Shown: one piece after another, positions 2,687 through 28,384 of the stretch
Layout of the letters: the number at the start of each line of letters is the position of its first letter
Numbering within the stretch: position 1 is the stretch's first letter
Assembly: GCA_947493695.1 (NCBI GenBank)
Contig: CANLSF010000002.1
Coordinates: 1,116,001 to 1,180,000 of the forward strand
Direction of reading: 5' to 3'
Length of the DNA stretch: 64,000 nucleotides
Source of the DNA: an uncultured Kiloniellaceae bacterium
Lineage (GTDB): Bacteria; Pseudomonadota; Alphaproteobacteria; Kiloniellales; Kiloniellaceae
Position numbers and translations under genes: made by a program
The notes under the pieces: model-generated
What the model was told of the DNA's origin: nothing
What the model saw: the letters and a program-made list of their open reading frames with translations, nothing else
Database searches by the model: none

Positions 2687-2742
2687 ACCCGCGGATCCTC
2701 CAGCCTGCCATCACGAGACCTGTTTCGTAAGCCGCATCGTTG

Positions 2743-6967: not shown

Positions 6968-7132
6968 AAATGTCTTCCCCTTGGCTTTTAAGCTTTGGTT
7001 GTCCTGGCTGGCTTGCGAAAGATGCTTGGCCTTTAGATGGCTGGCTTGGACTCTGAATTGTCGTGTGTTGAACCACCGGTATCGCGCCATGCCGTGCAAG
7101 GAAGATCCCTGTAAGCTGACGCAGCGGTGGGC

Positions 7133-8803: not shown

Positions 8804-10804
8804 TTAGGCGTCAGCTGCGGTTGCCGGCGGTCGCTTTGAACCGGTTTCGGTGATCTCGTCGTTGGCGGGCGCGGCCATGTCTGTCTCGGGTTCTGCCTGC
8901 GGCAACTGCCCATCAGAGGAAACCGCAGCGCCATCACTATCCACCGCCCCCTCTACCTCGCGCGCAGCGGCAAGCGCTTCCATAACCTTGGCCTCTTCTT
9001 CCTGCGCAACCGAAGTCTCAAGCTCCGGCGCACCCGGCCTGCCCACGCACTCGAGAAACACGCGCGCGGAACAGTTGCGGCAGGTATCGTCAGCAAGCCG
9101 GGACACCAACTGCTCGATGGCCGTTCCCTTGCTTTCGAAAACGTTTTCCGAGCCGATCGTTTCCATCACCCGCAATTTGCGCAGGCGCTTGAGCATCGGC
9201 GGGTAGCGCGCGACGATATAGAGCGCGCCGCCTCGCGCACGGCGGCGCAGATGCTCCTCGACAATCATATCGGCGGCAGCCAGATCGATCTCGCCGACAC
9301 CTTTCAGGACGAGTACCAGATGCTGCTGGCCGGGATGATCCCGCTCGAGCTTGCGGAATTCGGCTTCGATGGTTTCCACCGACCCGAAGTAAACCGCGCC
9401 ATCGATCCGGGCAAAGACGATCTCCGGGCACTCGACCAGGCTATGGGCGATCACATTTCGGAAACTGCGCCGGGTGCTGCTGGGATCCGGCGAGCTGATC
9501 GCCAGCTTGGGTCGGGCGGAGTTGGAGAGGAAGATCAGAAGCGACAGGATCACGCCAACGTAGATGGCGAATTCGAGACGTACAAAGAGGCCCGCCAGAA
9601 GCGTCGCGATAACCACCGCGCTGTCCGAACGGCTGGAGCGCAGAATGTGTCGGATTTCCTTGCGGTCGATCAGTTTCCAGGCGACGTAGAGGATGATCCC
9701 CGCCATCGCAGGCAAAGGCGTCAGGCTGACCAGCGGCGCGATGAAAAACAGCATGCCGCCCAGTAGGATCGAAGAAATGATTGCCGACAGAGGAGTCTTC
9801 GCACCGGCTTCGTAGTTAACCCCGCTGCGGGTGAAAGAGCCCGAACCCGGATAGGCTTGAAACATCCCGCCGACGAAGTTGGACATCCCCTGCCCGATGA
9901 TTTCCTGATTGGCATCGAAACGTGTGTGCGTTCGGGTCGCGAATGCGCGGCCAATCGAGACAGCTTCCAGCAGGGCGATCAGGGCGATAGCAAAGGCACT
10001 TTCGGAGAGAGCGCCCGCGCTTTCGAGCGTCACATCCGGCATATAAAAGCTGGGCGTGATCGACGGCAGTTCGCCCACCATCGCCACACCGTGTTCCCTG
10101 GCGTTAAGCAACCAAGCCAGGACGCCGCCCCCGACCATCGCAAGCATAAAGCCGGGTAGACGTTCGGAGATGTGCCGGAACACCACGACGAGGGCCAGTG
10201 TGAAGACCGCGATTACAATAGACCGCCAGTTCACCACATCGACCGAAATGACCAGATTATAGGCCCGCTCAACGACGGTTCCACCGCGCGCAACTGCGAC
10301 CCCCAGGACATCGCCCATCTGACTGATGCCGATCAGGATGGCCGCCGCCGCCGTAAAGCCGACCAGTACGGAGTGCGACACGAAGGTTACCAACCGTCCA
10401 AGCTTTGCAACGCCAAGCGCAAGCTGAAATGCCCCGACCAGAAGTGTGAGGATCAGCGCCGATTCAATGAACTCAGGCGAACCGGGATCGTGTTTCAGGT
10501 AGAGTGCGTTAAAGACAACCGCCGAAATGGCGGTTGTGGGACCGGAGATCATCACCATGGACGATCCGAAGATCGCGGCAACGATGGGCGTGATCATCGC
10601 AGTATAGATTCCGAACTCCGGTGGCAGTCCGGCGATTGTCGCAAAGGCTATGGCCTGCGGCAGAACTATCGTTGCGTTGGTAAATCCGGCGAAGAGGTCT
10701 GCGCGCAGACTCGTCCTGTCAACTGACGGAAGCCAGGTCAAGCAGGGCAGAAGCCTGCTCAAGAACGCGCCACTGAAACTCACTCGCCGATCCCTTTCCG
10801 GCAA
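8804..10804 (-). CDS. SulP-family anion transporter with STAS domain
   Basis: Inner-membrane transporter of the SLC26/SulP family, 666 residues. About 12 membrane segments occupy residues 30-430; signature elements are LPQAIAFATIAGLPPEFGIYT near residue 48 and an NFVGGMFQAYPGSGSFTRSG loop near residue 308. A STAS domain follows (about 455-555: VYFGSVETIEAEFRKL, LVLKGVGEIDLAAADMI). The tail is unusual: a Cys cluster (TCRNCSARVFLEC) just after STAS, then about 90 acidic, low-complexity residues. It lies 64 bases after soeC on the same strand, so it is probably the last gene of the sulfite-oxidation operon. Moving sulfate or sulfite is the natural inference; bicarbonate or dicarboxylate are alternatives within the family. 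Confidence 0.88.
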   Translation of the reverse strand: MPERDRRVSFSGAFLSRLLPCLTWLPSVDRTSLRADLFAGFTNATIVLPQAIAFATIAGLPPEFGIYTAMITPIVAAIFGSSMVMISGPTTAISAVVFNALYLKHDPGSPEFIESALILTLLVGAFQLALGVAKLGRLVTFVSHSVLVGFTAAAAILIGISQMGDVLGVAVARGGTVVERAYNLVISVDVVNWRSIVIAVFTLALVVVFRHISERLPGFMLAMVGGGVLAWLLNAREHGVAMVGELPSITPSFYMPDVTLESAGALSESAFAIALIALLEAVSIGRAFATRTHTRFDANQEIIGQGMSNFVGGMFQAYPGSGSFTRSGVNYEAGAKTPLSAIISSILLGGMLFFIAPLVSLTPLPAMAGIILYVAWKLIDRKEIRHILRSSRSDSAVVIATLLAGLFVRLEFAIYVGVILSLLIFLSNSARPKLAISSPDPSSTRRSFRNVIAHSLVECPEIVFARIDGAVYFGSVETIEAEFRKLERDHPGQQHLVLVLKGVGEIDLAAADMIVEEHLRRRARGGALYIVARYPPMLKRLRKLRVMETIGSENVFESKGTAIEQLVSRLADDTCRNCSARVFLECVGRPGAPELETSVAQEEEAKVMEALAAAREVEGAVDSDGAAVSSDGQLPQAEPETDMAAPANDEITETGSKRPPATAADA

Positions 10805-10868
10805 CCACGCCCGGCCGGCCGTATCGTATTTCAGCGCGCATCAAAAAAGCTGTGCGCGCTTCACCCCA

Positions 10869-11792
10869 TTATCTATGCCCGTAGTATAGAGACACTGAAT
10901 GCTCGGCCTCTGCAAAGAAGAGCCAGCGTTCGGTCATCATCCCGACCAGATGAGACAGAACGGCGATCACCAGTATGAATCCGCCACCAGCCGAAACAAC
11001 CGCTGCCAGAAGCGCAAGCACCGGAATCCCACCACCCAAGGCCACCGCCATAAGCCGAAGCTTTTGAGCGTGCTTGCGGCCAACCCGATAGACCATTTCT
11101 TTCATCAGGTAGTTTGGCGACGAATGCGGGGCTTCCAGCAAACGCACCTTGCCAATATCGCCCAGACCAGTCGCGGTTTCCGGCGACGATCCGATTGACG
11201 CCAGCGTCGTGCGATCTGACCGGTTCCACCAGACAAATTTCGCGCCCCAGGCAATCACCATCAAAACCAGCGCTGCATAGAGCGTGTTCTCCGCCCCATG
11301 TCCCATGAGGGCCGAAACAGTGGCCGCCAGGAGCGCCCCACCGGCAACCGCAAAGAGGAGGTAACACAGGGGCGTCAGGCCCGTGCGCCAGCGCGGCACG
11401 GTTTTCAGCGAGCCATAGATCATCGCCGTGGCGTAGACCGTCACCAGAGAAAGCAACGTGAGCAAAATTCCGACCACTGCCACGCGATCAGCGGCAAACA
11501 CCCACAGTGCTGCGTAGATCGCAAAAATGCCGAGGGTCACAACAGCAAGAACACCTTCGCGCGACAGCCAGGAAGACCGCCATTGAGTGAGTGCACGCCA
11601 GGCCCGCTCGGGATGCCCCAGGTGAAAGGTCGAAGAAGCCAGGCCAATGCCCGTCAGGATGAACGAGAGCGCACAGACAACAAGCCCGGCCGTGCCGTCG
11701 CTGGGCGCAGCGCCCAGACCCAGCATGGCAATCAGACCAAAGCCCATTCCGGACAGTGTTGTGAAAACGATAATTGAGGAAGCAGGATGCAT
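10869..11792 (-). CDS. soeC: DmsC-type membrane anchor, probable SoeC
   Basis: Integral membrane subunit, 307 residues with about eight hydrophobic segments, of the DmsC family (start MHPASSIIVFTTLSGMGFGL; AFHLGHPERAWRAL-like motif as STFHLGHPERAWRALTQWR near residue 57; WLSREGVL; C-terminus AEAEHSVSLYYGHR). It would anchor SoeA and SoeB to the cytoplasmic face of the inner membrane and pass electrons to quinone. It starts four bases after the soeB stop. The name Soe rather than Dms rests on SoeA lacking a Tat signal and on the SulP and sulfonate-type neighbours. Confidence 0.78.
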   Translation of the reverse strand: MHPASSIIVFTTLSGMGFGLIAMLGLGAAPSDGTAGLVVCALSFILTGIGLASSTFHLGHPERAWRALTQWRSSWLSREGVLAVVTLGIFAIYAALWVFAADRVAVVGILLTLLSLVTVYATAMIYGSLKTVPRWRTGLTPLCYLLFAVAGGALLAATVSALMGHGAENTLYAALVLMVIAWGAKFVWWNRSDRTTLASIGSSPETATGLGDIGKVRLLEAPHSSPNYLMKEMVYRVGRKHAQKLRLMAVALGGGIPVLALLAAVVSAGGGFILVIAVLSHLVGMMTERWLFFAEAEHSVSLYYGHR

Positions 11793-11796
11793 TTTC

Positions 11797-12597
11797 TTAT
11801 CCCATCTTCTCGAGAGCGGAATCGAGCCAGCCCAGGAAACCTTTGGCTTCCGGTTCGGCCAGCGCAGCCAGATCGCTTGGCGCGCTCTGAACAGGTCGGC
11901 TCTTGGGGCGTGGCGGAAGGTATTTGTTCACTGGTTTCGTGCCCTGCTCAGGCATCAGGTCCATGCCGCCACGCTCCGCGACCATCACTGAAACATCGGA
12001 ATTGGGATCGCTGAAGTCCCCGAAGTGCCGGGCATTAGCCGGACAGGTCCTTACACAGGCCGGTTCGCGGTCTTCTTCCGGAATATTTTCGTTGTAGATC
12101 CGGTCGACGCAGAGGGTGCACTTCTTCATCACCCCTTCAGCAGCATCCATCTCGCGCGCGCCATAAGGACAGGACCAGGCGCAGAGGCCGCAGCCGATAC
12201 ACCAGTCTTCGTTCACCAGAACGATGCCGTCCTCGGTCCGCTTGTAGCTGGCGCCGGTCGGACACACCGTCACGCAGGGCGCATCTTCGCAGTGCAGACA
12301 GGATTTGGGGAAATGGACGATCCGGGCGTCCTTACCGTTCGCCAGGATCTGAGCTTCAGAGCTGGAACAACCTGATCCGTCGGACGCCTCGACTTCGAAG
12401 GTATGGATCCGGTTCAACCAGGAGCCGACAGGATCGGCGCCGTAAGGATTCTGATCCGACAACGGCGCACCGTAACCGCCGGTGTTCCATTCCTTGCAGT
12501 TCACCACGCAGGCATGACAGCCGACGCAGATATCCAGATCGATGACAAGGCCGAGCGCCTTCTCGGTATGTGTGGGCAGAGACGTCATTTCGTCCAC
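11797..12597 (-). CDS. soeB: Iron-sulfur subunit with four 4Fe-4S sites, probable SoeB
   Basis: Ferredoxin-like electron transfer subunit, 266 residues. Four Cys clusters can be read in order: CVGCHACVVNC near residue 22, CLHCEDAPCVTVCP near 100, CIGCGLCAWSCP near 132 and CTLC with CVRTCP near 153-186. This is the DmsB/NrfC/SoeB pattern, carrying electrons from the molybdenum subunit to the membrane anchor. The reading frame overlaps the soeA stop by 13 bases, implying coupled translation. No export signal. The last 60 residues are a Pro/Arg-rich extension of no known role. Confidence 0.85.
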   Translation of the reverse strand: MDEMTSLPTHTEKALGLVIDLDICVGCHACVVNCKEWNTGGYGAPLSDQNPYGADPVGSWLNRIHTFEVEASDGSGCSSSEAQILANGKDARIVHFPKSCLHCEDAPCVTVCPTGASYKRTEDGIVLVNEDWCIGCGLCAWSCPYGAREMDAAEGVMKKCTLCVDRIYNENIPEEDREPACVRTCPANARHFGDFSDPNSDVSVMVAERGGMDLMPEQGTKPVNKYLPPRPKSRPVQSAPSDLAALAEPEAKGFLGWLDSALEKMG

Positions 12598-15425
12598 TCC
12601 TTCCCGTAGCGCAGTTCGGAAGGTCCGGCCTCGGCTGGCCCCTTCTGAGCATCGAAACGCGGTTCGCTCAGTTCGTCACCGGCTTCGGCCTTTTCAACAC
12701 GCACCCGCAGGTCGTACCAGGCCGCCTGTCCCGTGATGGGATCGGAGTTCGACCAGCGCATACCGTCGCCGTTCTCAGGCAGAAGTTCGTGGATCAGGTG
12801 ATTGAGCAGGAAACCCTTCTTGGTCTCCGGTGCATCCTCAGACAAACCCCAGGCTCCGGCGCGCTTGCCAATCGCGTTCCAGGTCCAAAGTGTTTTTGAG
12901 TTCACGGCTTCCATGCGCATGACCGGAACCTTGATACGACCGTGCTGGGAGATCACCCAGGCCCAGTCACCATCTTTCAGTCCCTGCGCATCACAAACGT
13001 CACCGGGCACATACATCGGGTTGGTGCCGTGGATCTGCCGCAACCAGGCGTTCTGCGAACCCCAGGAATGATACATCGCCGCTGGACGCTGAGTAATCGC
13101 ATGCAATGGGTATTCGCCCTCGTCGATCATCGTACCTTCAAAAGGTGCGTACCAGATCGGCAGAGGATCGAAGCAGTCCCGAATACGGGCCTTAAGATGC
13201 TCAGGCGGGGTCTGGTCGGCCTTGCCTTCCGCGGTCAACTGAAACTTGCGTAGCGGTTCGAGATAGAGCTGAAAGGTAACCGGCTGTGGCGCATCAAAGA
13301 AGCCCTTACCAACCGCCCAATCCTGATAGGCAGCGTTGGCGTGTTTGAAGAACTGCGCTTCTGCCGGAATATGTTCGATCCAGAAACCGCCGTTGTCTAT
13401 GTAGCGCTTAAGCTGATCCGGGTTCGGCGCGCCGCGCCCGGCCTGATCGGCATTCTCGCCACGCCAGCCCGACAGTGGACCGATGCCCGGTTTGCGCTCG
13501 TGACTGACAATGTAATCTGCATAGTCACTGAACTTTGCGGAGCCGTCTTCATTGACGAAGCCGGGGAGGCCCAGACGGGCGCCGAGATCAATCACAACCG
13601 ACTGGAAGCCACGTACGTCACGATCCGGTTCAACAACCGGCCAGCGGATGGAATCCGCCACCGCATCAGGCTCGCAGATCGGCCGGTCGAGCAGTGAAAT
13701 GCAGTCATGCCGCTCAAGATAGGTCGTATCCGGCAAAACCAGATCGGCGTAGGCCACCATCTCGGAGGAATAGGCATCCGAGTAGATGATTTTCGGAATG
13801 ACGTATTCGCCGTTCTCGTCCTTTGCCTCCAGCATCTCCATCACACCGCGCGAATTCATCGAGGAATTCCACGACATGTTGGCCATGTACATGAAGAGCA
13901 CATCGACCGGATAGGGATCACCGGCATAGGCGTTGGAGACCACCATATGCATCATGCCGTGCACGGACATGGGAGCGTCCCAGGAGAAAGCTTTGTCGAT
14001 GCGCTTTGCTGTGCCGTCCTCGTTGAGGGCTAAATCTTCCGGTCCGCGCGGATAACCCAGGTGCGGCCCAGGCAGAGGACTGTTCGCCGCGTACTCGGCA
14101 TGTGGCGTCGGGTGCGCTTCCATGGGCTTCGGATAAGGCGGCTTGAAGCGGAACCCGCCCGGGCACTCGATTGATCCCAGCAGGATCTGCAGAAGATGCA
14201 GAGATCGGCAAGTCTGGAAACCGTTCGAATGAGCAGAGATCCCTCGCATCGCGTGGAACGCCACTGGGCGCCCGATCATCTTCTCGTGCCGCTCGCCCTT
14301 CATATCGGTCCAGGGCTGATCGATAACGATCTCTTCTTCAAAGGCGGTATGCGCTAGTTCCGCAGCCAGTCGCTTGATCTGTGCCGCCGACACACCCGTC
14401 TGCGCCGCGACGGCGTCGGGGGCATAAGCCTCGTCGAGATACTTTTCCGCCAGCAGTTCGAAGGCCGGAACGGCTTTACGACCGTCAGGCAGGGTCACTT
14501 CGCCCTTGAGGCCCGGTTTAACGCCGGTCTGTTTTTGCGAAACGCAGGCCTTGGCCTCACGATCCCAGACCAGAACCTCGCCCTCGTCATTGCGGGCGAA
14601 GAGACCGTGATCCTTCGCATCCGGATCGCGGATCACCAGCCAGGGCGCGTTCGTATAGCGGATGAGGTAGTCCAGATCGATCTTGCCGGCGCGCAGCAGC
14701 TCATGAATAAGCGCGAGAATAAAGAGACCGTCGGTTCCCGGTGTAATGCCGACCCACTCGTCGGCAATGGCGTTGTAGCCGGTCCGGACCGGGTTCACGC
14801 CCACGATTTTGGCGCCGCGCTCCTTGAGACGGCTCAGACCCATCTTGATCGGGTTCGAATCGTGATCCTCGGCAACACCGAAGATCATGAACATCTTGCT
14901 GCGCTCCCAGTCAGGCTGACCGAACTCCCAGAATGCGCCGCCCATGGTGTAAATCCCGGCGGCCGCCATATTTACTGAGCAAAACCCGCCATGCGCTGCA
15001 TAGTTCGGTGTCCCGTATGCCTGCGCCCAGAAACCAGTCAGTGACTGGCTCTGGTCCCGCCCCGTAAAAAACGCCAGGCGCTTGGGATCTGTCTCGCGAA
15101 TATCTTTCAGCCAGGAGGTCGCGAGTTCCATCGCTTCGTCCCATTCGATTTCCTGGAACTCGGCCTTGCCGCGCTCGCCAACCCGTTTCAGCGGCTTCTT
15201 CAGGCGCGCAGGCGAGTAATGCTGCATGATCCCGGCGGAACCCTTGGCGCAAAGAACGCCTTTGTTGACCGGATGATCACGGTTACCTTCGATGTAGCGG
15301 ACCTTGTTGTCACGCAGATGCACATTGATGCCGCAACGGCACGCGCACATGTAACAGGTCGTTTTACGGATCTCATCCGAGACCTTCGGAGACGGGTCCA
15401 GGGCTTCGCGTTCAAACAAACTCAT
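12585..15425 (-). CDS. soeA: Molybdopterin oxidoreductase catalytic subunit, probable sulfite dehydrogenase SoeA
   Basis: Large bis-MGD molybdoenzyme subunit, 946 residues from the chosen ATG (MSLFEREALDPSPK), which has GGGGAGA upstream; an 18-codon longer frame has none. An N-terminal 4Fe-4S motif C-x2-C-x3-C (CYMCACRC, residues 24-31) pairs with GVLCAKG. Molybdopterin-binding landmarks include FFTGRDQSQSLTGFW, the C-terminal DWAWVISQHGRIKVPVMR and RPAAMYHSWGSQNAWLRQI. No Tat signal is present, so the enzyme faces the cytoplasm, as described for SoeABC sulfite dehydrogenase and unlike DmsA or PhsA. It would oxidise sulfite to sulfate with electrons going to quinone. Substrate is inferred from architecture and neighbours; other DMSO-reductase-family substrates remain possible. 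Confidence 0.75.
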   Translation of the reverse strand: MSLFEREALDPSPKVSDEIRKTTCYMCACRCGINVHLRDNKVRYIEGNRDHPVNKGVLCAKGSAGIMQHYSPARLKKPLKRVGERGKAEFQEIEWDEAMELATSWLKDIRETDPKRLAFFTGRDQSQSLTGFWAQAYGTPNYAAHGGFCSVNMAAAGIYTMGGAFWEFGQPDWERSKMFMIFGVAEDHDSNPIKMGLSRLKERGAKIVGVNPVRTGYNAIADEWVGITPGTDGLFILALIHELLRAGKIDLDYLIRYTNAPWLVIRDPDAKDHGLFARNDEGEVLVWDREAKACVSQKQTGVKPGLKGEVTLPDGRKAVPAFELLAEKYLDEAYAPDAVAAQTGVSAAQIKRLAAELAHTAFEEEIVIDQPWTDMKGERHEKMIGRPVAFHAMRGISAHSNGFQTCRSLHLLQILLGSIECPGGFRFKPPYPKPMEAHPTPHAEYAANSPLPGPHLGYPRGPEDLALNEDGTAKRIDKAFSWDAPMSVHGMMHMVVSNAYAGDPYPVDVLFMYMANMSWNSSMNSRGVMEMLEAKDENGEYVIPKIIYSDAYSSEMVAYADLVLPDTTYLERHDCISLLDRPICEPDAVADSIRWPVVEPDRDVRGFQSVVIDLGARLGLPGFVNEDGSAKFSDYADYIVSHERKPGIGPLSGWRGENADQAGRGAPNPDQLKRYIDNGGFWIEHIPAEAQFFKHANAAYQDWAVGKGFFDAPQPVTFQLYLEPLRKFQLTAEGKADQTPPEHLKARIRDCFDPLPIWYAPFEGTMIDEGEYPLHAITQRPAAMYHSWGSQNAWLRQIHGTNPMYVPGDVCDAQGLKDGDWAWVISQHGRIKVPVMRMEAVNSKTLWTWNAIGKRAGAWGLSEDAPETKKGFLLNHLIHELLPENGDGMRWSNSDPITGQAAWYDLRVRVEKAEAGDELSEPRFDAQKGPAEAGPSELRYGKEWTK

Positions 15426-15878
15426 GCGGAATATTCTCCCCAAAACAGGTTGGCGATTCCACATGCCAACGATGTCCATGCTTCCAATGCAACAACCGAA
15501 GAAAACATCAGCGCATCTCCACGGTGAGAGAAATCACCGGCAGCGCCTGAATGGGCTCCGGAGTTCCCCCCAATTAAACGGAACGGATGACAAGAACGAA
15601 TAGGGTAGTTTTATGACAAAAACCACCATAAATGAGACCCGCATTACCAAATTCAAGCAATTTTCCCACAAAAAGCCCTCTTTAAGAGCTTTTTTGGTAA
15701 ATTCACTCAACCAAAAGAAGGTGCGCCGCTTTGCCGCAATGTTGCTCAGTCACAAGACCGAAACGAACACAAGCGACCGCAACTTTCTGTTATGGACACT
15801 TACCCCGCACCAGACTAACCCCAGTCAGGCGAATTTACCTCAGTTCAGGTATCGTCGAACAGGCTTTTATCTGCATCT
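15426..15878. other. Intergenic region between soeA and the acyl-CoA ligase operon
   Basis: About 450 bases, AT-richer than its surroundings. It carries the soeABC promoter region (leftward) and the 3' end of the ligase operon, with a terminator-like hairpin near 15668-15697. A plus-strand ORF crossing into sucD looks like a shadow: it is Ser/Thr/Lys-rich, lacks a ribosome site and runs antisense to a solid gene. Confidence 0.5.
15666..15697 (-). terminator. Possible rho-independent terminator after the acyl-CoA ligase operon
   Basis: Read on the minus strand, AAAAAGCTC, a short AT loop and GAGGGCTTTTT form a hairpin with one irregularity, ending in a T run. It lies about 190 bases past the sucD stop, in the right orientation to end that operon before soeA. 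The stem is imperfect and the distance is long, so confidence is limited. Confidence 0.35.
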
Positions 15879-16760
15879 TCAGGCGGCTTTCCGATCCAGT
15901 CCTTCTTTGAGCAAAACTGGTATCTGGCTGGGTACATCGGCGACACTCACACCGACTGCCTCAAGCGCGGCGCGCTTTGCACCATATGCGCCAGAACTAC
16001 CCGAAACAATCGCACCGGCATGCCCCATTTTTTTGCCAGGTGGCGATGCACGCCCGGCGATGAAGGCGACCACGGGCTTGGACATCTCTGCAGCGTATTC
16101 AGCCGCACTTTCTTCTGCAGATCCGCCAATCTCCCCACAGAGTACGACCGCTTTGGTGCGGGCATCCGCGTCGAGGATTTCCAATGCATCACGGGAAGTC
16201 GTGCCGATCATCGGGTCGCCGCCCACACCGTAAAATGCCGACTGACCAAACCCGCTCTGGGTCAGATTCAAACTGACCAGAGTTCCCAGGCTGCCCGAAC
16301 GGGAAATCACACCGATTTCCCCGGGTCGAAAGACATTGGCGTTAAACGCCGGCATGATCCCGACAAAACACTCACCGGGTGTCACCACTCCCGCCGTGTT
16401 GGGTCCGACGATCCGCACAGCATTAGCCGCCGCAGCGGCATGCATCTCCATCACGTCATGGGCTGGAATGTGTTCAGTCAGACAGACCAGCATTTTCACG
16501 CCGGCCTCGCAGGCATCAATTGCCGCTGCCTTGGCCGCCATCGGCGGAATGAACATGACCGAAACATCAATCGGCGTGTCGCGGGCAGCGTCCACGGCAC
16601 AGGCATACACCGGAACCTCCAGATGCTCGGTCCCGGCCTTCCTGGGATTGACCCCGGCAACCACCGAAGTGCCATAGTCCTGCATCGCCTTAGTCCAGAA
16701 GGTTCCCTGTTTACCGGTAATGCCCTGAACCAGGACTTTATGTTCTTTTCTGACGATCAT
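15879..16760 (-). CDS. sucD: ADP-forming acyl-CoA ligase alpha subunit (SucD family)
   Basis: CoA-binding and phospho-His subunit of a succinyl-CoA-synthetase-like ligase, 293 residues. N-terminal CoA-binding fold (VLVQGITGKQGTFWTKAM), Ser-rich phosphate loop (VISRSGSLGTLVSLNL) and the active-site His in KKMGHAGAIVSG near residue 247 are all present. It departs from the housekeeping SucD pattern GPNCPG, reading GPNTAG near residue 119. With its beta subunit next to a SauS-like dehydrogenase and a TTT transporter, a specialised acid such as sulfoacetate is a better guess than succinate. Malate-CoA ligase, known from serine-cycle methylotrophs, is an alternative. It overlaps sucC by one base (TAATG type). 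Confidence 0.8.
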   Translation of the reverse strand: MIVRKEHKVLVQGITGKQGTFWTKAMQDYGTSVVAGVNPRKAGTEHLEVPVYACAVDAARDTPIDVSVMFIPPMAAKAAAIDACEAGVKMLVCLTEHIPAHDVMEMHAAAAANAVRIVGPNTAGVVTPGECFVGIMPAFNANVFRPGEIGVISRSGSLGTLVSLNLTQSGFGQSAFYGVGGDPMIGTTSRDALEILDADARTKAVVLCGEIGGSAEESAAEYAAEMSKPVVAFIAGRASPPGKKMGHAGAIVSGSSGAYGAKRAALEAVGVSVADVPSQIPVLLKEGLDRKAA

Positions 16761-17893
16761 TACGCCGCCTCCGCTGCTGCCGCGACTGCGGCCTTAACCG
16801 CATCATCCATAAGATCGAAAGGCTCAAGTCCCAGTTCTTCACGCACGATTTTCACAGCTTCGTCCTCGCCCGTACCGTGAATGGTGAAAAAAATTGGAAT
16901 ATCCGGCGCCAGATCCTTCCAGGCTGCAACCAGCCCTTCGGTCATCACGTCCGTGCGCGCAAAGGCGCCGCAGAAATTGACCAGCAGACTGCGAATGTCG
17001 GTGTTTTCCAGCAGGATCGAGAGCGCAATCTTCGACTTGGTATAGGCCTCGCCGCCAATCTCGAGAAAATTCGCAGGCTCCCCGCCATAATGAGTAATTG
17101 CATCCATCGACGTCATGGTCAGTCCCGCGCCGTTCGCAAGCACCCCGACAGAACCGCCAAGCGCAATGTACTTCAGCCCGGCCTCATGGGCCTTCAACTC
17201 CAGCGCGGTCATGAGTTCCGGCGCTGCCTGTTCGACAAGTTCGGCCTGACGGGGAGCCGCCGAATCATCAATCGTCAGCTTGCAATCCAGGGCGACCACC
17301 TGCCCGTTATCCGTCAGCACCAGTGGATTGATTTCCAGCAGCTCCGCATCCCGGTCGCGGTAAGCCCGATAGAGTTTCACCAGCACGTCAGCGACCGCAG
17401 CCTGCATTTCACCAAGGCCGCAGCCTTCAAGCGCCCGCTGTGCGGAGGAAAGGTCAAAACCCTTGGTGATATCCACGGGAATTTTCCGCATGGCCTCAGG
17501 GTCGGTCTCGGCGACCTCCTCCACATCCATGCCACCCATCATGGAAAAGAGGATCAACGGGTTCTTTGAGGCCACATCGTTCAGAACCGCAACATAGAGC
17601 TCCTGCGCAATGGGAACCTGTGCCTCAATCAGCAGCTTCTCGACCCGATGCCCGTCAATCTCCATGCCGAGGATCGCCTGCGCATGAGCCTTGGCCTCCT
17701 CCGATGTTGCGGCCAGCTTGATGCCCCCGGCCTTACCGCGTTTTCCGGTCGGCACCTGAGCCTTGACGACACACTTGCCGATCCGCGCGGCTGCGACCTC
17801 GGCTGCATCGGCGTCCCAGACCAGTTCGCTGGCTGGCACGGCAACGCCGCAGGTCTCCAGCAAGGGCTTCGCCCTGTATTCTTCAAAATTCAT
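16760..17893 (-). CDS. sucC: ADP-forming acyl-CoA ligase beta subunit (SucC family)
   Basis: ATP-grasp subunit that binds the nucleotide and the carboxylate, 377 residues. It begins MNFEEYRAKPLLETCGVAVP, has the ATP-grasp Lys segment CVVKAQVPTGKRGKAGGIKL near residue 45, LEINPLVLTDNGQVVALDCKL near residue 195 and the Gly-rich substrate loop near residue 250 (SVGVLANGAGLTMTSMD). Family members couple ATP or GTP hydrolysis to CoA thioester formation. The pair lies directly downstream of the aldehyde dehydrogenase (29 bases), so ligase and dehydrogenase are likely sequential steps of acid reduction. The name reflects fold, not proven succinate use. Confidence 0.8.
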   Translation of the reverse strand: MNFEEYRAKPLLETCGVAVPASELVWDADAAEVAAARIGKCVVKAQVPTGKRGKAGGIKLAATSEEAKAHAQAILGMEIDGHRVEKLLIEAQVPIAQELYVAVLNDVASKNPLILFSMMGGMDVEEVAETDPEAMRKIPVDITKGFDLSSAQRALEGCGLGEMQAAVADVLVKLYRAYRDRDAELLEINPLVLTDNGQVVALDCKLTIDDSAAPRQAELVEQAAPELMTALELKAHEAGLKYIALGGSVGVLANGAGLTMTSMDAITHYGGEPANFLEIGGEAYTKSKIALSILLENTDIRSLLVNFCGAFARTDVMTEGLVAAWKDLAPDIPIFFTIHGTGEDEAVKIVREELGLEPFDLMDDAVKAAVAAAAEAA

Positions 17894-17922
17894 GAATCGT
17901 CTTCCTATGGGATCCAGATGCG

Positions 17923-19353
17923 TTACTTGCCGTATTTCGACCAGTAACTTCCGAACAGAGCCTCTTCCGAGGGCTTATCCTCGGCAATCGTCGTCACCAG
18001 GTGCGTGGTATTGATGAAATGGCGGTAGTTGAGGTTCTCGCTGATACTGTTCCCGGCCCAGGTACCACCGCCCATGGAGAGGGTGAAAGGCAGCGAGTTG
18101 TTGAAACTGCCTCCATTTCCGAAGGTGTGCGCCTGATTGACCAGCACGCGAACCACATCGGTTTCTTCCGCAAGCTCCCGGGCATGTTCCATATTGGCCG
18201 TGTGTACGCCCACGGAATGCCCCTTGCCTTTTACCTCAAGAATGGCCGTCGTAATCCGCTTTGCGTCAGCAAAGTCCTTGGCGCGATAAACTGTGAGGAT
18301 CAGCGCCAGCTTTTCGTCAGACAAGGGACGGTCAGGGCCCGGACGATCGTCTTCCACCATGGCAAACTTGGCCGTGGCCGCTGCCGGAGACAATCCGATG
18401 ACGTCGGCAAAGACATTCATGTCCTTGGCAATGACGTGCCGGTTGAGGTGACCCTTCTGCCAGAGACCGGCGAGGACCTTTGATTTCTCCCCGGCGTCGC
18501 AAAGATGTCCACCCGCCCGCTTTAAGGCTTCCAGGGCCTGATCGTAGACGGCGTCGAGAATAATCACGGAATTCTCGGACGAGCAGGAGGTCGCGTTGTC
18601 GAAGATCTTCGAAGCGGTGATTTTTTCCGCCGCATCATCCAGGTCGGCGGTGTCATCGATAATCACCGGCACGTTGCCCGCGCCGACACCAATGGCCACA
18701 GTGCCCGACGTCATCGCACGCTTGACGTTGTTCTGGGATCCGGTGACGACCGCAAGGTCGCAGCTGTTGATCAGCGCCTGGGTCATATCCTTGGTCACGG
18801 GCGCGGGCAGGATCTGCACAAGGTCTTCGGGATGATTGCACTTCTTCAATTCCGCACGCATCAGATCGACGGTCTTGGCCGTTGTGCCATAACCTGCAGG
18901 TGACGGCGCAATGATAACCGCGTTGCCACCCTTAAGCGCCATCATGGCCTTGTTCACCGGTGTGGCCGCCGGGTTGGTCGAAGGACAGACCGCGCCGACA
19001 ACACCGACCGGCTTACCGTACTTCACCATACCTTTGTCCGGGTCAGAATCGATCACACCCACGGTCTTCGCGCGCAGCAGATCACGCAAAGCCCCGAAGG
19101 TTTTCCGGGTGTTCTTGATGATCTTGGATTCCACATTGCCCAGGCCCGTATCCTCGACAGCGAGTTCCGCCAGCAGCTTCGCATTCTCAGGCTTGTAGAT
19201 TGACCAGGCCAGCGCAGTCACCGCCTCGTCGACACGGGACTGGTCCTGATTTTCGAAAGCTTCCATGGCGCCATGCGCCCGCCGCATCAGGTCCGCAACA
19301 GCCTGCTCCGCAGATCCGGATGCAGGTTCAAGTGCTGTTACCTTGGCAGACAT
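17923..19353 (-). CDS. sauS: CoA-acylating aldehyde dehydrogenase, SauS-like (sulfoacetaldehyde dehydrogenase)
   Basis: NAD(P)-dependent, CoA-acylating aldehyde dehydrogenase, 476 residues from the ATG at 19353 (MSAKVTALEPAS), which follows AAGGAAGGA; a longer frame starts 14 codons earlier without support. The catalytic Cys lies in NATSCSSENSVI near residue 260, and VGVVGAVCPSTNPAATPVNK near residue 118 and GGTWAGNSISENLNYRHF near the C-terminus are typical of the EutE/SauS group. SauS in Cupriavidus reduces sulfoacetyl-CoA to sulfoacetaldehyde (established for that organism). Neighbours, a ligase pair and a carboxylate/sulfonate transporter, fit the same step. Acetaldehyde or another short aldehyde is possible. 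Confidence 0.72.
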   Translation of the reverse strand: MSAKVTALEPASGSAEQAVADLMRRAHGAMEAFENQDQSRVDEAVTALAWSIYKPENAKLLAELAVEDTGLGNVESKIIKNTRKTFGALRDLLRAKTVGVIDSDPDKGMVKYGKPVGVVGAVCPSTNPAATPVNKAMMALKGGNAVIIAPSPAGYGTTAKTVDLMRAELKKCNHPEDLVQILPAPVTKDMTQALINSCDLAVVTGSQNNVKRAMTSGTVAIGVGAGNVPVIIDDTADLDDAAEKITASKIFDNATSCSSENSVIILDAVYDQALEALKRAGGHLCDAGEKSKVLAGLWQKGHLNRHVIAKDMNVFADVIGLSPAAATAKFAMVEDDRPGPDRPLSDEKLALILTVYRAKDFADAKRITTAILEVKGKGHSVGVHTANMEHARELAEETDVVRVLVNQAHTFGNGGSFNNSLPFTLSMGGGTWAGNSISENLNYRHFINTTHLVTTIAEDKPSEEALFGSYWSKYGK

Positions 19354-19432
19354 AATAGTTCCTTCCTTGTCTCGTAATGCTGTCTTGCAGGACATACGTC
19401 GTTTACGGCCTGCAGGTTTCTTTCACTGACGC

Positions 19433-20956
19433 TCAGTCCATGAGGGCTTTTTGCAGTTTATGTCCGCGCACTTCATTCCAGATGCTGCTGGCGACCGTGA
19501 GAACTGCAGCGACCAGCAGGAAGGCGGCGATAGGGCGCGAGAAAAAGCCTAAGAAATCGTAATCCATCAGTTGCATGGACTTGGCGAAAGCCGACTCACC
19601 CAGTTTGCCCAGGATCAAACCGAGCACGATGCCCGCTGCCGAATAACCGGTGCGGCGTAGAAAGAACCCTATCGCCCCAGCCAGGAACATGACCCAGACG
19701 TCGATCGTCAGATTCCGCAAGGCAAAAGCCCCGATGGTGGCGAGCAGCAGGATCCCGGGCGCCAGCCAGCGGAAGGGCACATTCAGGATGTGAACCACCG
19801 TCTTGGTTTGCAGCCACCCCAGCGCAACGATGCAGAGGTTTGCCCAAAACATCGCTGCGAAGGTCACCCAGACCAGATCGGAGGAATTAATGAAAATAAG
19901 CGGCCCCGGCTCCATGCCGTGAATCTGGAAAATCCCCATGATCATCGCGGTCAAGGCGCCGCCCGGCAGGCCGAGAGCAAGCAGAGGAATCATAGCCGCT
20001 CCGGTGGCCGAGTTGTTCGCAGTCTCGGAGGCAACGACACCGGCCAGTTCGCCTTTGCCGAAACGCTCTGGCGTCTTCGACCAACGCACGGCCTGACTGT
20101 AACCCAGAAAGGCCGCCAGCGTCGCGCCGATGCCGGGCAGAATACCGGCGAAGAAGCCCAGGAACATGGAACGCAGCATGGTAAAGCGGACCGACCAGAA
20201 TTCCAGGAGCGACGGAAATTCGAGGTTTGCTTTCGGGCGCTTGCGTTTGCCCTCGGCTATGCTCATCGCCTGTACGAAAACCTCCGACACCGCGAAGAAA
20301 CCCAGGATCATCGGAATGAAGTGAATACCCGCCGAGAGGTAATAGGAGGAAAACTCAAATCCCATGAGCGAGCCTCCGTTGAAACGCGGTACGCCGCCTA
20401 CCGGATCAGTTCCGATGGTCGCGATCATCAGGCCTGCGAAGACCGAAAGCCATCCTTTCCAGAGCGTCTCTGCCCCGACCGACGCGGACACCGCCAGACC
20501 GAAAAAGATCAGCGCAAAGATTTCCTGCGGCCCGAAGGCGCGCACGGCCCAGCCGGCGATCAGCGGGGTCGCGGCCATCATAACAACCGCAGACGCAACG
20601 CCGCCGATGGCCGAACAGGACACCGCCGCGCCGATCGCTTTTCCCGACTTGCCCTGGACCGTCATAGGATAGCCATCGAAGCAGGTGGGTGCATTCTCGG
20701 GCGCACCCGGGATGTTAAAGAGGATTGCTGTGATCGCCCCTCCGAAAACGCCCGCGCAGTAGATGACCGAGAAGAGCATCACCGCGTGGTTCGGCTCCAT
20801 ATTGATGGTAAAGGGAAGCAGGACCGCCCCAAGGGTCAACATATTCACGCCCGGGATAGCGCCGAACAACATGCCGCCGATCAAACCCAGTCCAAACAGC
20901 ATGACAGCGGTCGGATCGCCGAAGAGTGTGAGAGTACCGTTTAAGAATTCAACCAT
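19433..20956 (-). CDS. tctA: Tripartite tricarboxylate transporter, large membrane subunit TctA
   Basis: Large permease subunit of a TTT system, 507 residues with about 10-12 hydrophobic segments. Family landmarks are near the N-terminus (MLFGLGLIGGMLFGAIPG and AVMLFSVIYCAGVFGGAITA) and the repeat-like FAGILPGIGATLAAFLGY near residue 272, plus GAAMIPLLALGLPGGALTA near residue 320. It starts ten bases before the tctB stop region, i.e. directly after tctB. Import is driven by ion gradient and depends on TctC. TTT systems carry citrate, tartrate, dicarboxylates and organosulfonates, so substrate must come from context, here sulfoacetate (inference). Confidence 0.92.
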   Translation of the reverse strand: MVEFLNGTLTLFGDPTAVMLFGLGLIGGMLFGAIPGVNMLTLGAVLLPFTINMEPNHAVMLFSVIYCAGVFGGAITAILFNIPGAPENAPTCFDGYPMTVQGKSGKAIGAAVSCSAIGGVASAVVMMAATPLIAGWAVRAFGPQEIFALIFFGLAVSASVGAETLWKGWLSVFAGLMIATIGTDPVGGVPRFNGGSLMGFEFSSYYLSAGIHFIPMILGFFAVSEVFVQAMSIAEGKRKRPKANLEFPSLLEFWSVRFTMLRSMFLGFFAGILPGIGATLAAFLGYSQAVRWSKTPERFGKGELAGVVASETANNSATGAAMIPLLALGLPGGALTAMIMGIFQIHGMEPGPLIFINSSDLVWVTFAAMFWANLCIVALGWLQTKTVVHILNVPFRWLAPGILLLATIGAFALRNLTIDVWVMFLAGAIGFFLRRTGYSAAGIVLGLILGKLGESAFAKSMQLMDYDFLGFFSRPIAAFLLVAAVLTVASSIWNEVRGHKLQKALMD

Positions 20957-20965
20957 TGCCCCGCC

Positions 20966-21571
20966 TCACATCCCGATCCGAACAAGACCGATAATCCAGT
21001 TGTTGAGATCGTAAAAGCTCTCGATACGGCCAACCGGAAGGGCGACATAAAACAGACGCGTGAAGATCAGAAGCACCAGTCCGTAAACCACTGCCGTAAC
21101 TGCCGCCAAAGCCTTGAGGCTGCGCACCTCCAGCAGAAGCAGGATGGCCAGAATGAAGAAGGGGGTGGCGACGTAAAAACCAATCTCCGGCATCACGTAG
21201 AGATACACAAAAGGCGTCGCGAACACTCCGGCCCTCTGCAGCTTTGACCCGAGCGAAAGAACCGGCGGCGCGGCCTCATCCGCTTGATTTTCCGACTGGC
21301 CGCTCGGCTCAACCGGCATAGCGTGTTTCCGGGTCAGCTTGTAGAGCAGCTGCGCGGTCGCACCGAAAGCCACCGCCGCACAAAGGACACGCGGCCAACC
21401 CGACGCCCCGAAGCGATATTCGGCAATCGGTTCATCAAAGTTATCGGTCAAGGCATAAAGCGTTCCGGCAAGCACCAGCCAGAACAGCCACTCCAGCACC
21501 GGCGTCGAAAAAAGCGGGCTGATCGAGACAGTCAGGGTTTGGCCGTCAGGCCTGTTATCGGAAGAGGACAC
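20966..21571 (-). CDS. tctB: Tripartite tricarboxylate transporter, small membrane subunit TctB
   Basis: Small membrane subunit of the TTT transporter, 201 residues. Four hydrophobic segments can be seen: near residues 22-42 (LEWLFWLVLAGTLYAL), 60-75, 110-140 (FATPFVYLYVMPEIGFYVATPFFILAILLLLEV, located by its start) and 150-175. The FGASGWPRVL segment near residue 54 is typical of TctB. It is separated from tctC by about 210 bases with two hairpins and from tctA by nine bases. Confidence 0.85.
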   Translation of the reverse strand: MSSSDNRPDGQTLTVSISPLFSTPVLEWLFWLVLAGTLYALTDNFDEPIAEYRFGASGWPRVLCAAVAFGATAQLLYKLTRKHAMPVEPSGQSENQADEAAPPVLSLGSKLQRAGVFATPFVYLYVMPEIGFYVATPFFILAILLLLEVRSLKALAAVTAVVYGLVLLIFTRLFYVALPVGRIESFYDLNNWIIGLVRIGM

Positions 21572-21687
21572 GGCATCCCTCGTCTAATACCTAGGAGTGT
21601 TGAGCTGGGAAAACTGACCTGCATCTTACGCAAAACTTAAGTCAGTCAAGAGGGTGTCAGATTCACACAAGTCTCCCTCCGCCGGGA

Positions 21688-21704
21688 AAAAGCCACCGGC
21701 TTTT
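21688..21704 (-). terminator. Hairpin with T tail between tctC and tctB (possible attenuator)
   Basis: AAAAGCC-ACC-GGCTTTT is a perfect 7-bp stem with a 3-base loop. On the transcribed (minus) strand it is followed by one more T and then CCC, so it is a weak terminator or attenuator. It lies about 80 bases past the tctC stop and before tctB. Confidence 0.4.
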
Positions 21705-21751
21705 GTCCCGACATCGCATTCTCCCGGCGAAGGATAACTTGCGGCTGGCTC

Positions 21752-21774
21752 TCGCCACGAAGACGTCGTGGCGA
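21752..21774 (-). promoter_or_regulatory. Strong 9-bp hairpin just downstream of tctC
   Basis: TCGCCACGA-AGACG-TCGTGGCGA is a perfect 9-bp inverted repeat with a 5-base loop, starting nine bases after the tctC stop on the transcribed strand. There is no T run, so it is more likely an mRNA 3'-end stabiliser that raises binding-protein expression over the membrane subunits than a terminator. Confidence 0.5.
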
Positions 21775-21782
21775 CCGGGAGC

Positions 21783-22787
21783 CTACTTCCCGATCCCCAG
21801 CTCTTTGTAGACGGTGCGATAGGTCTGAACCGCTTCATTGATCAGCTTCACGGAACCTGAAGTATCGCGATAGCTGTTAATCAGGTTCATGAATTTCTTT
21901 TCGTTGAAAGCCTGAAACCCCTCCGTATCGAAGCCTGCCTTACAGGCCGCGGCCAGGAACTCCGTCCGATCTTTCGGCACATCGCGCTTCACGTAGAAAC
22001 CACGAAACCGGGTCAGCGCTTCAAAGTCCGCTCCGACTTCTTTGTGCGTAGGCGTATCGGCGAAAACATCGGGGCGCTCATCCAGGAACGTCAGGATCGG
22101 CTTCATCTGGCCGGAATCCAGGAAACTCCGCACATCGCCCGGCTGCTCGAACAATACATCGACATGCCCACCGATCAGTGCACCGTAACGTTCCGCAGGT
22201 TTATCGAAAGCAATCTGTTTGACCTTCATATCCAGCGCGTTCTGCAACTGCGACATGACCACCAACTCCATTGATCCGACCTTACCCAGGTTCGCCATCG
22301 AGGCCTGCCCGGGGTTGGCTTTCACAAATGCCAGAAAGGAATCCCAGTCGGTAAAACGATCTTCGTCACCACGAATGTAGATCTGACTGAAGGTGATCTG
22401 CGTCATGCAGAGCGGCGTCCAGTCTTCGGCGGGGTTCTCGCGGATATCGCCTTTGGCATACGCTGAAATCGCGTTGTCGATATGCTCCATCACTGTGTAT
22501 CCGTCACCAGGCGAGAGCATAAAATCAGGAATGGCTGCGGTGCCACCGCCGCCGGGCTTGTTTACGACCTGAAAATTCAGACCCGCGACCTCCTCCATGG
22601 CCTTGGCCATGGAACGGGCAAGTTGGTCCGACCCTCCACCGGCGCCAAAGGGAACAATCATGGTCAGCGGCCGGACCCCAAATCCGGCGGGCTTTTCAAG
22701 TAATTCGGCGGCAGAAAGACTAAGAGACGTCGCGGATAACAGTAGTGTGCCAATGGCAAGGCCAGCGGCCTTTTTTTTATTGATCAC
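21783..22787 (-). CDS. tctC: Tripartite tricarboxylate transporter, periplasmic binding protein TctC
   Basis: Extracytoplasmic solute receptor of the TTT system (Bug family), 334 residues. Signal peptide: MINKKKAAGLAIGTLLLSAT with cleavage around LSAAELLE. The mature start FGVRPLTMIVPFGAGGGSDQLARS has the conserved GGGSDxLAR substrate loop, and QVVNKPGGGGTAAIPDF is the typical second loop. First gene of the leftward operon and divergent from the LysR gene, so likely under its control. Two hairpins downstream suggest the binding protein is made in excess. Confidence 0.93.
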   Translation of the reverse strand: MINKKKAAGLAIGTLLLSATSLSLSAAELLEKPAGFGVRPLTMIVPFGAGGGSDQLARSMAKAMEEVAGLNFQVVNKPGGGGTAAIPDFMLSPGDGYTVMEHIDNAISAYAKGDIRENPAEDWTPLCMTQITFSQIYIRGDEDRFTDWDSFLAFVKANPGQASMANLGKVGSMELVVMSQLQNALDMKVKQIAFDKPAERYGALIGGHVDVLFEQPGDVRSFLDSGQMKPILTFLDERPDVFADTPTHKEVGADFEALTRFRGFYVKRDVPKDRTEFLAAACKAGFDTEGFQAFNEKKFMNLINSYRDTSGSVKLINEAVQTYRTVYKELGIGK

Positions 22788-22968
22788 GTTTATCTCCCCA
22801 TTTGTTTCTCAGGCATTATTCGGCCTGATGTCGTTTTTTTGTTAACTCAGATACAACCCATCAATTTACTTCACCAGAAAACAACATCAGGATAGCAGCA
22901 ATTTTTCTTCTACAAAGCGGATTTTTACTCCATTATCATCAATATTTTTGGTGTTATTGGAGATCCAG
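22788..22968. promoter_or_regulatory. Divergent promoter region tctC / LysR gene
   Basis: About 180 AT-rich bases between the divergent start codons. This is the expected site for LysR binding and for the promoters of the TTT/ligase operon and the regulator. No clear T-N11-A palindrome could be singled out by eye. Confidence 0.5.
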
Positions 22969-23853
22969 GTGTCCATCAAACAATTCAAGGCCTTGGTCGC
23001 CGCCAGCCAGCACGGCTCCTTCAGCGCAGCTGCAGATGCCTTACACCTCACACAATCTGCGGTAAGCATGCAAGTCAATGCTCTGGAGAAAGCGCTCGGC
23101 ACCTCACTCTTCGATCGCAGCCACCGCCCATTACATTTGACCGAATCCGGCAGGATCGTGATTGTCAAAGCACGGGAGATCCTGCGCCAATACGATGGCA
23201 TTCAGGATGCCCTTGCGGAAACTCAACCCTACTCCGGCGTCTTTCGTCTGGGCGCTGTCCCCACAACCCTGACGAATATTCTACCCCGCGCGGTCATGCT
23301 CCTCACCCAGCGTGAACCGCGTCTGACCCTGAACGTCGTATCGGGCCTATCGGGTGCGTTAGCCGAGAAAGTGCGAAAGAGCGAGATCGATGCCGCCTTG
23401 ATCAGCGAGCCCAGCAATCTGCAGGAGGATCTGGACTGGCAGCCGGTAACGCGCCAGAAAATCGTAATCGTCGCCCCACCCGATTCCACTGAACGCGCCG
23501 TTCAGGAAGTTTTCAGCGCGCACCCCTACATCCGCTTCAATCGCGGCGCCTGGGCAGCCCCTTTAATCGAGCATCGTCTGGAAGAAATGGGCATCTCCAT
23601 GGACACCCGCGCCGAGATCGAATCCATAGAATCCATATGCATGATGGTCGCCGCCGGGTTCGGCGCATCGATCATCCCGGACACCGGCATGCGCATGCCT
23701 TTCCTGCCCCGGCTGCGCATCCTGGAGTTCGGCGCACCGCCGACCTTCCGCAGCATCGGACTGCTGTCGCGCGGCGACATGCAGAAGGAAAACATCCGGA
23801 CGAAAATTCACGGCGCGTTGACCAACGCAGTGGCTCTGGCAACGGAGAGCTAA
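22969..23853 (+). CDS. LysR-family transcriptional regulator
   Basis: LysR-type regulator of about 294 residues. The N-terminal winged HTH reads FKALVAASQHGSFSAAADALHLTQSAVSMQVNALEKAL (located at residues 5-42) with LFDRSHRPLHLTESGR after it; the rest is a type 2 periplasmic-binding-like effector domain. The preferred start is GTG at 22969 (VSIKQFKAL) because GGAG lies seven bases upstream; an ORF seven codons longer begins at a TTG inside the spacer. Divergent orientation to tctC makes it the likely regulator of the TTT/SauS/ligase operon, with the imported acid or its derivative as co-inducer (inference). Confidence 0.88.
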   Translation: MSIKQFKALVAASQHGSFSAAADALHLTQSAVSMQVNALEKALGTSLFDRSHRPLHLTESGRIVIVKAREILRQYDGIQDALAETQPYSGVFRLGAVPTTLTNILPRAVMLLTQREPRLTLNVVSGLSGALAEKVRKSEIDAALISEPSNLQEDLDWQPVTRQKIVIVAPPDSTERAVQEVFSAHPYIRFNRGAWAAPLIEHRLEEMGISMDTRAEIESIESICMMVAAGFGASIIPDTGMRMPFLPRLRILEFGAPPTFRSIGLLSRGDMQKENIRTKIHGALTNAVALATES

Positions 23854-28254: not shown

Positions 28255-28384
28255 AGGAATTTCTCGGCTTTTTTGAGGGGATGGATCATGATTCGAAGAG
28301 AGGACCGCCAGCATAGACGAGATCCGGCGGGCAGGTCACCTGCAGTGTACGAGACAGCAGATAGCGGTGACTCAAAGCCGGAAA

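Follow-up and report, generated by a model that had tools for sequence, protein, structure and literature searches.

We analysed a 64,000-nucleotide stretch of DNA (hereafter, the window) from an uncultured Kiloniellaceae bacterium (assembly GCA_947493695.1, contig CANLSF010000002.1, positions 1,116,001 to 1,180,000; the host genome has 6,463,119 bases in 20 contigs). We found that it carries what is very probably a LysR-controlled operon for the dissimilation of sulfoacetate. On the minus strand the order is TctC, TctB, TctA, SauS, SucC, SucD, a 399-base gap, SoeA, SoeB, SoeC and SulP. The first three genes encode a tripartite tricarboxylate transporter (TTT): a TctC-type periplasmic binding protein (21783..22787; PF03401, 62.4 bits), whose hydrophobic N-terminal stretch resembles a signal peptide by eye, the small membrane subunit TctB (20966..21571; PF07331, 47.6 bits) and the large membrane subunit TctA (19433..20956; PF01970, 415.4 bits). 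All of them pass the Pfam cut-offs, so the three TTT subunits are present together. Next come SauS, a coenzyme A (CoA)-acylating sulfoacetaldehyde dehydrogenase by its profile match (17923..19395), and the two subunits of an ADP-forming acyl-CoA ligase: SucC-type beta (here SauC, 16760..17893; ATP-grasp_2 and Ligase_CoA domains) and SucD-type alpha (SauD, 15879..16760; PF02629, PF00549). Beyond the gap (15480..15878) lie a SoeA-like molybdopterin subunit (12585..15479; PF00384, PF04879, PF01568), a SoeB-like 4Fe-4S subunit (11797..12597; PF13247, 81.9 bits), a SoeC-like DmsC-family membrane anchor (10869..11792; PF04976, 76.9 bits) and a SulP-family anion permease with a STAS domain, a candidate sulfate transporter (8804..10804; PF00916, 301.7 bits; PF01740, 37.9 bits). 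The LysR-type regulator (22948..23853, plus strand; Pfam PF00126 and PF03466) is divergent from the operon. The original prediction, made from the letters of the window, had named these genes, all but LysR on one strand, and domain and profile searches recovered each of them in its place.

In the proposed pathway, TctCBA would import sulfoacetate, SauCD would convert it to sulfoacetyl-CoA at the cost of ATP to ADP and phosphate via a phospho-histidine, and SauS would reduce the thioester to sulfoacetaldehyde, freeing CoA. Xsc, encoded elsewhere in two near-identical copies, would cleave sulfoacetaldehyde to sulfite and acetyl phosphate, and a Ptb-type phosphotransacylase, also encoded elsewhere, would pass the latter on to acetyl-CoA. 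SoeABC would oxidize sulfite to sulfate on the cytoplasmic side with electrons going to the quinone pool, and SulP probably moves the sulfate, presumably outward. A sulfoacetate-to-sulfate route with sulfite disposal built in had been predicted, and it appears supported by the SauS score, the presence of xsc and the linkage in relatives. The module had also been called complete-looking. By itself it does not cover the whole route, as xsc and the phosphotransacylase are encoded outside it.

SauS scores 791.6 bits on NF047625, the curated equivalog model for acylating sulfoacetaldehyde dehydrogenase (cut-off 600), and is the only protein of the genome above that cut-off. On two acetaldehyde models it reaches 333 and 290.7 bits, far under the cut-offs of 951 and 620. 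By these profile scores the window dehydrogenase belongs with SauS and not with the acetaldehyde enzymes; a grouping with the latter had been named beforehand as refuting the predicted module. Within the SauS family, the activating enzyme encoded nearby varies. In a tree of 115 SauS rows (built by a quick method, with SH-aLRT support only), the neighbouring activation gene is ADP-type in 83 rows, AMP-type in 13, a CoA-transferase in 3 and none in 16; two of the 13 AMP-type rows (L081, L255) are weak, with the ligase gene 2.7-2.8 kb away. The neighbour labels need 6 changes on this tree versus 15.3 in shuffles. One AMP-type row (L134) and two CoA-transferase rows (L093, L105) are nested among ADP-type rows, which suggests that the activating enzyme has been exchanged.

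Cupriavidus necator H16 reportedly activates sulfoacetate with the AMP-forming SauT on a route that leads onward to Xsc. In the window, a SucCD-type pair lies beside sauS where the SauSTU pathway has SauT. It is one of three SucC-type ligases of the genome, distinct from the host's own SucC, which scores over the succinate models and not over the malate model, and from an MtkA-like protein that is also over the malate-CoA ligase model (713.4 versus 604). SauC falls below the cut-off of all four models it matched; SauD passes one succinate-CoA ligase model (343.9 bits versus 336) and misses another (337.5 versus 353.2). In a ligase tree of 90 rows, 82 operon-type SauC proteins split from the 4 SucC and 4 MtkA-like proteins of the genus with support 100/100, at a branch where, the program warns, long branches meet. 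Trees with characterized enzymes had been proposed for both proteins; here the SucC-type protein was placed in a tree with the SucC and MtkA-like proteins of the genus, and SauS was assigned by the curated model score.

The ligase subunits also differ from their paralogs in specific residues. Of 82 SauC rows, 80 have the loop NFCGAFAR; at this place the other two SucC-type proteins of the genome have NIFGGI or NIFAGI. Residues F307, C308 and A310 are among those common to at least 97% of 81 SauC rows and occur in 0 of 8 SucC and MtkA-like rows. SauD has S157 and L161 where the 8 SucC-/MtkA-type rows carry T and E, and its phospho-histidine motif GHAGA is found in 75/75 SauD rows. As in succinyl-CoA synthetase, these loops would lie near the acid. 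The loop NFCGAFAR can distinguish these ligases from the genome's other SucC-type proteins. Members of the SauC clade are found next to sauS in many Alphaproteobacteria as well as on a Rhodococcus plasmid, and on three plasmids the SauCD genes bear the annotations succinate-CoA ligase beta and CoA-binding protein. The clade, the invariant substitutions and the operon partners favour sulfoacetate as the substrate, and the predicted replacement of SauT by an ADP-forming SucCD-like pair seems sound.

We examined the surroundings of SauS in 80 loci from species genomes (the 80 best of the 354 that nine SauCD-linked SauS queries retrieved). SucC is directly downstream of SauS in 71 of them, and in 70 of the 77 that have at least 1.2 kb downstream. 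A TTT gene is found in 44 loci (TctA at ≥55% identity in 26), xsc at >60% identity in 18, SoeA in 9 and SulP in 4 (three of the window's genus and L124); a LysR homologue occupies the opposite strand in 11. The full gene order of the window recurs in Denitrobaculum tricleocarpae R148 (L085), in Pelagibius sp. Alg239-R121 (L086) and in another uncultured Kiloniellaceae bacterium (L084), its nearest relatives among titled genomes, with SauS identities of 91-93%; since it is kept in all three, it is not due to chance (L051, L234 and L235 are these genomes again, not additional ones). Loci of other relatives bring in the genes that the window lacks. One-strand runs with a divergent LysR read TctCBA-SauS-SucCD-Xsc-Pta in Afifella pfennigii (L092), TctCBA-SauS-SucCD-Xsc-Ptb-SoeABC in Pararhizobium haloflavum (L098) and TctCBA-SauS-SucCD-Xsc-SoeABC in L131 and L138, and L106 has SauS-SucCD-Xsc-Pta-SoeABC with a second TctA type. 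On an Indioceanicola plasmid, Ptb-TctCBA-SauS-SucCD-SoeABC is accompanied by xsc at a distance of 2.6 kb. The run on an Azospirillum plasmid is Ptb-TctCBA-SauS-SucCD-SoeBC-xsc (its gene table has nothing at the soeA position), and on the Rhodococcus plasmid SauS-SucCD has nearby an MFS transporter, xsc and a phosphotransacetylase. Because relatives join the same genes in one run with xsc, phosphotransacetylase and soeABC, we tie the cluster to sulfoacetate.

The original prediction placed xsc and pta outside the window and would have been undermined by a genome without xsc. A profile search of the genome gave 16 xsc matches, none over the cut-off (0 of 1). Absence of the gene was nevertheless rejected as an explanation, since two copies turned out to be split at contig ends, an assembly artefact. 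The 5' part is represented by pieces where contig C1 starts and where C6 ends, the 3' part by pieces at both ends of C8 (L082:3-431, L083:11305-11604, L237:2-85 and the end of L238; see also L239-L246). Against a full Xsc, identity is 89% over 143 residues and 90% over 100 for the 5' pieces, and 86% over 28 for the 3' pieces. The two 5' pieces share 295/300 bases, with unlike DNA upstream (23/100), and the 3' pieces share 82/85. Paired pieces at contig ends recur in the other three genus genomes, 5' and 3' in G335, 5' in G386 and 3' in G385; the middle of neither copy was seen in any of the four. Since each of the four genus genomes searched has paired pieces at contig ends, the genus most likely carries two near-identical copies of xsc which its assemblies leave broken, possibly the result of recent duplication or gene conversion. 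Two full-length proteins of G385 (419.5 and 406.7 bits, below the Xsc cut-off, 32-33% identical to Xsc) are taken as paralogues. Of the two xsc copies, one comes after a choline-dehydrogenase-type protein and has a TRAP transporter nearby, for which isethionate is presumably the fitting substrate; the other adjoins a DAO-family oxidase that we take to be a candidate taurine dehydrogenase. In G335 and G386 the 5' pieces have the same two neighbours.

The search for pta, also proposed earlier, yielded no stand-alone canonical Pta among the three PTA_PTB matches in the genome, which are two malic-enzyme-type fusions and one Ptb-like protein, and the host genome has no acetate kinase. The Ptb-like protein, 317.6 bits on PRK08190 (cut-off 282), is the genome's sole stand-alone phosphotransacylase. 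Eight SauS loci (L055, L089, L093, L097, L098, L107, L250, L251) contain genes to which it is 46-60% identical, and xsc is present in all eight; in L089, L093, L097, L098 and L107 the two genes are adjacent by coordinates.

Several observations weigh against the sulfoacetate reading. The assembly lacks the central part of xsc and contains no full-length copy of the gene. Across the family, xsc is over the cut-off in 18 of 23 genomes and SauS in only 7 of 23, hence xsc would mostly serve other sulfonates. G387, a genome of the same family (87% complete, 860 contigs), contains SauS-SucCD; all 15 of its Xsc matches are at ≤35% identity, none a true Xsc. In the fetched DNA, 62 of the 80 SauS loci are without xsc and 71 without SoeA; among loci with at least 8 kb on both sides, xsc is present in 14/45 and SoeA in 8/45, and three of the nine SoeA-bearing loci belong to the window's own genus. 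The count of 71/80 for SucC is itself biased toward the SauCD arrangement because the queries were SauCD-linked. In a less biased sample, 24 of 385 genomes of the class have SauS over the cut-off, and beside it SucC is found in 14 (the window included), an AMP-forming ligase in 7 and neither in 3, one of them cut by a contig end.

The association of SoeABC with the upstream genes calls for separate consideration. The SoeABC name is given from architecture (molybdopterin subunit, 4Fe-4S subunit, DmsC-type anchor), and no NCBIfam model is listed above its cut-off for the window SoeA, SoeB or SoeC. The best Protein Data Bank (PDB) relative of SoeA is thiosulfate reductase (144 bits). No RRxFL twin-arginine motif was found in the first 60 residues of SoeA; absence of a Tat signal is a typical SoeA trait. 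The 399-base gap before soeA corresponds to the position of xsc, with or without a phosphotransacylase, in L098, L106, L131 and L138. An xsc remnant was considered for the gap and rejected: neither an Xsc nor a Ptb match was found there. It does contain a 24-base block upstream of soeA (window 15615-15638), identical in an alignment of the four genus members and overlapping a stem-loop-like site. Apart from copies of the gap, the block was not found at ≤5 mismatches in the DNA examined; because it occurs nowhere else there, it shows no link to the xsc copies. It is possibly a regulatory element of soe. Scans for sigma-70 sites (0 found versus 5.3 expected in shuffles) and terminator-like sites (18 versus 15.7) were uninformative. 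Because a 399-base gap with a conserved block precedes soeA, the gene may have its own promoter, and SoeABC with SulP could be a general sulfite-oxidizing unit merely adjoining the sulfoacetate genes, the more so as other substrates of Xsc would yield sulfite too. We nevertheless regard such a separate unit as rather unlikely, given that SoeABC comes after SauSCD, either at once or with xsc in between, in L087, L098, L106, L131, L138 and on two plasmids. On the Indioceanicola plasmid, a permease annotated SLC13 (L250:17669-19449) stands after soeC, in the position of SulP, which hints at a common need for anion transport.

SauS and SauCD could also run in reverse, from sulfoacetaldehyde (derived from taurine or isethionate) to sulfoacetate, with ATP made at SauCD and the product exported, a direction taken by SqwD and SqwKL in the sulfo-TK variant. 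In fermenters this pair of enzyme types does run that way (PMC12890257, PMC11489063), and the genes next to either xsc copy point to other sources of sulfoacetaldehyde. However, the TctC binding protein implies an importer, and relatives run xsc, phosphotransacetylase and soeABC together with these genes, which fits use of sulfoacetaldehyde; we consider the reverse direction very improbable. Another short sulfonate or a dicarboxylate, such as 3-sulfopropionate or succinate, could instead be the substrate of the ligase and dehydrogenase. In favour of this, the same pair of enzyme types in HpfXYZ is specific for 3-sulfopropionate (PMC11489063), and the best solved-structure relatives are a succinate-semialdehyde dehydrogenase for SauS (274.8 bits) and succinyl-CoA synthetases for SauC and SauD. 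Against it, the linkage is to xsc, a C2-sulfonate enzyme, SauS matches its own model and the genome already has its own SucC and malate-CoA ligase; we consider this reading very improbable too.

Activation of sulfoacetate may not be limited to ligases. A family III CoA-transferase (PF02515) directly follows SauS in two alphaproteobacterial loci (L093:11413-12630, L105:11390-12532) and on one haloarchaeal plasmid (L253:9522-10709), where a TTT importer adjoins. The rows of L093 and L105, in which it takes the place of SauCD, fall inside the SauCD-linked portion of the SauS tree. In L093 the genes run SauS, CoA-transferase, Xsc, Ptb, an order suggesting that acetyl-CoA from the pathway donates the CoA, which would make activation free of ATP cost; no xsc at >60% identity was found in L105 or in the haloarchaeal plasmid stretch. 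We tentatively propose, at less than even confidence, that SauS is a fixed core coupled to three activations, by an AMP-forming ligase, an ADP-forming ligase and a family III CoA-transferase.

Other genes surround the operon. A molybdopterin oxidoreductase (23879-25933) and a protein with a dimethylformamidase beta-like C-terminal domain (26044-28314) adjoin it, also in L084 and L085, and a homologue of the latter protein is near SauS in L126. A probable haem uptake cluster occupies window positions 717-7099 (TonB receptor, HemS/ChuX-type protein, binding protein, FecCD permease, ABC ATPase).

An ADP-forming ligase spends one phosphate bond and the AMP-forming SauT two. With one bond spent instead of two, and with sulfite oxidation that would return electrons, sulfoacetate should be a better substrate for aerobes that use this version of the route. 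The metabolism of sulfoquinovose and of taurine yields sulfoacetate as an end product (PMC12890257, PMC12625764).

The combination of an ADP-forming ligase with a TTT importer, offered by the original prediction as an inference for this window, is indeed present here but is not a new idea. Bilophila wadsworthia has SauS with an ADP-forming SauCD (reviewed in PMC12890257) and a putative TTT importer, SauXYZ (PMC12625764, 2025), and thus resembles the window in all three components (Liu 2023, via PMC12890257 and PMC12625764). It differs downstream, where TauF reduces sulfoacetaldehyde to isethionate and cleavage is left to the radical enzyme IseG, whereas we propose Xsc and SoeABC for the window. 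The Arenicellales sponge symbiont OTU3 has predicted sauSCD with a TTT, and xsc and pta in its genome; it is a gammaproteobacterial metagenome-assembled genome, and the excerpt of PMC12625764 does not mention soeABC for its cluster. Cupriavidus necator H16 SauSTU shares the SauS step but uses SauT and the MFS transporter SauU (PMC12625764), in contrast to the ADP-forming SauCD and TTT of the window. SqwD-SqwKL and HpfX-HpfYZ likewise pair a CoA-acylating dehydrogenase with an ADP-forming sulfo-acyl-CoA ligase but run toward the acid, making ATP (PMC12890257, PMC11489063), and HpfYZ is a C3-sulfonate ligase inactive with sulfoacetate (PMC11489063). In the literature searched, with most subscription journals outside the search and papers seen in excerpt, we found neither an operon joining SauCD to Xsc and SoeABC, nor sulfoacetate joined to a CoA-transferase, nor a CoA-transferase beside SauS. 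Overall, the parts are known from these systems, and what appears to be new, as judged from gene content and order, is their wiring to Xsc and SoeABC, the breadth of the arrangement, the diagnostic loop of the ligase and the CoA-transferase beside sauS.

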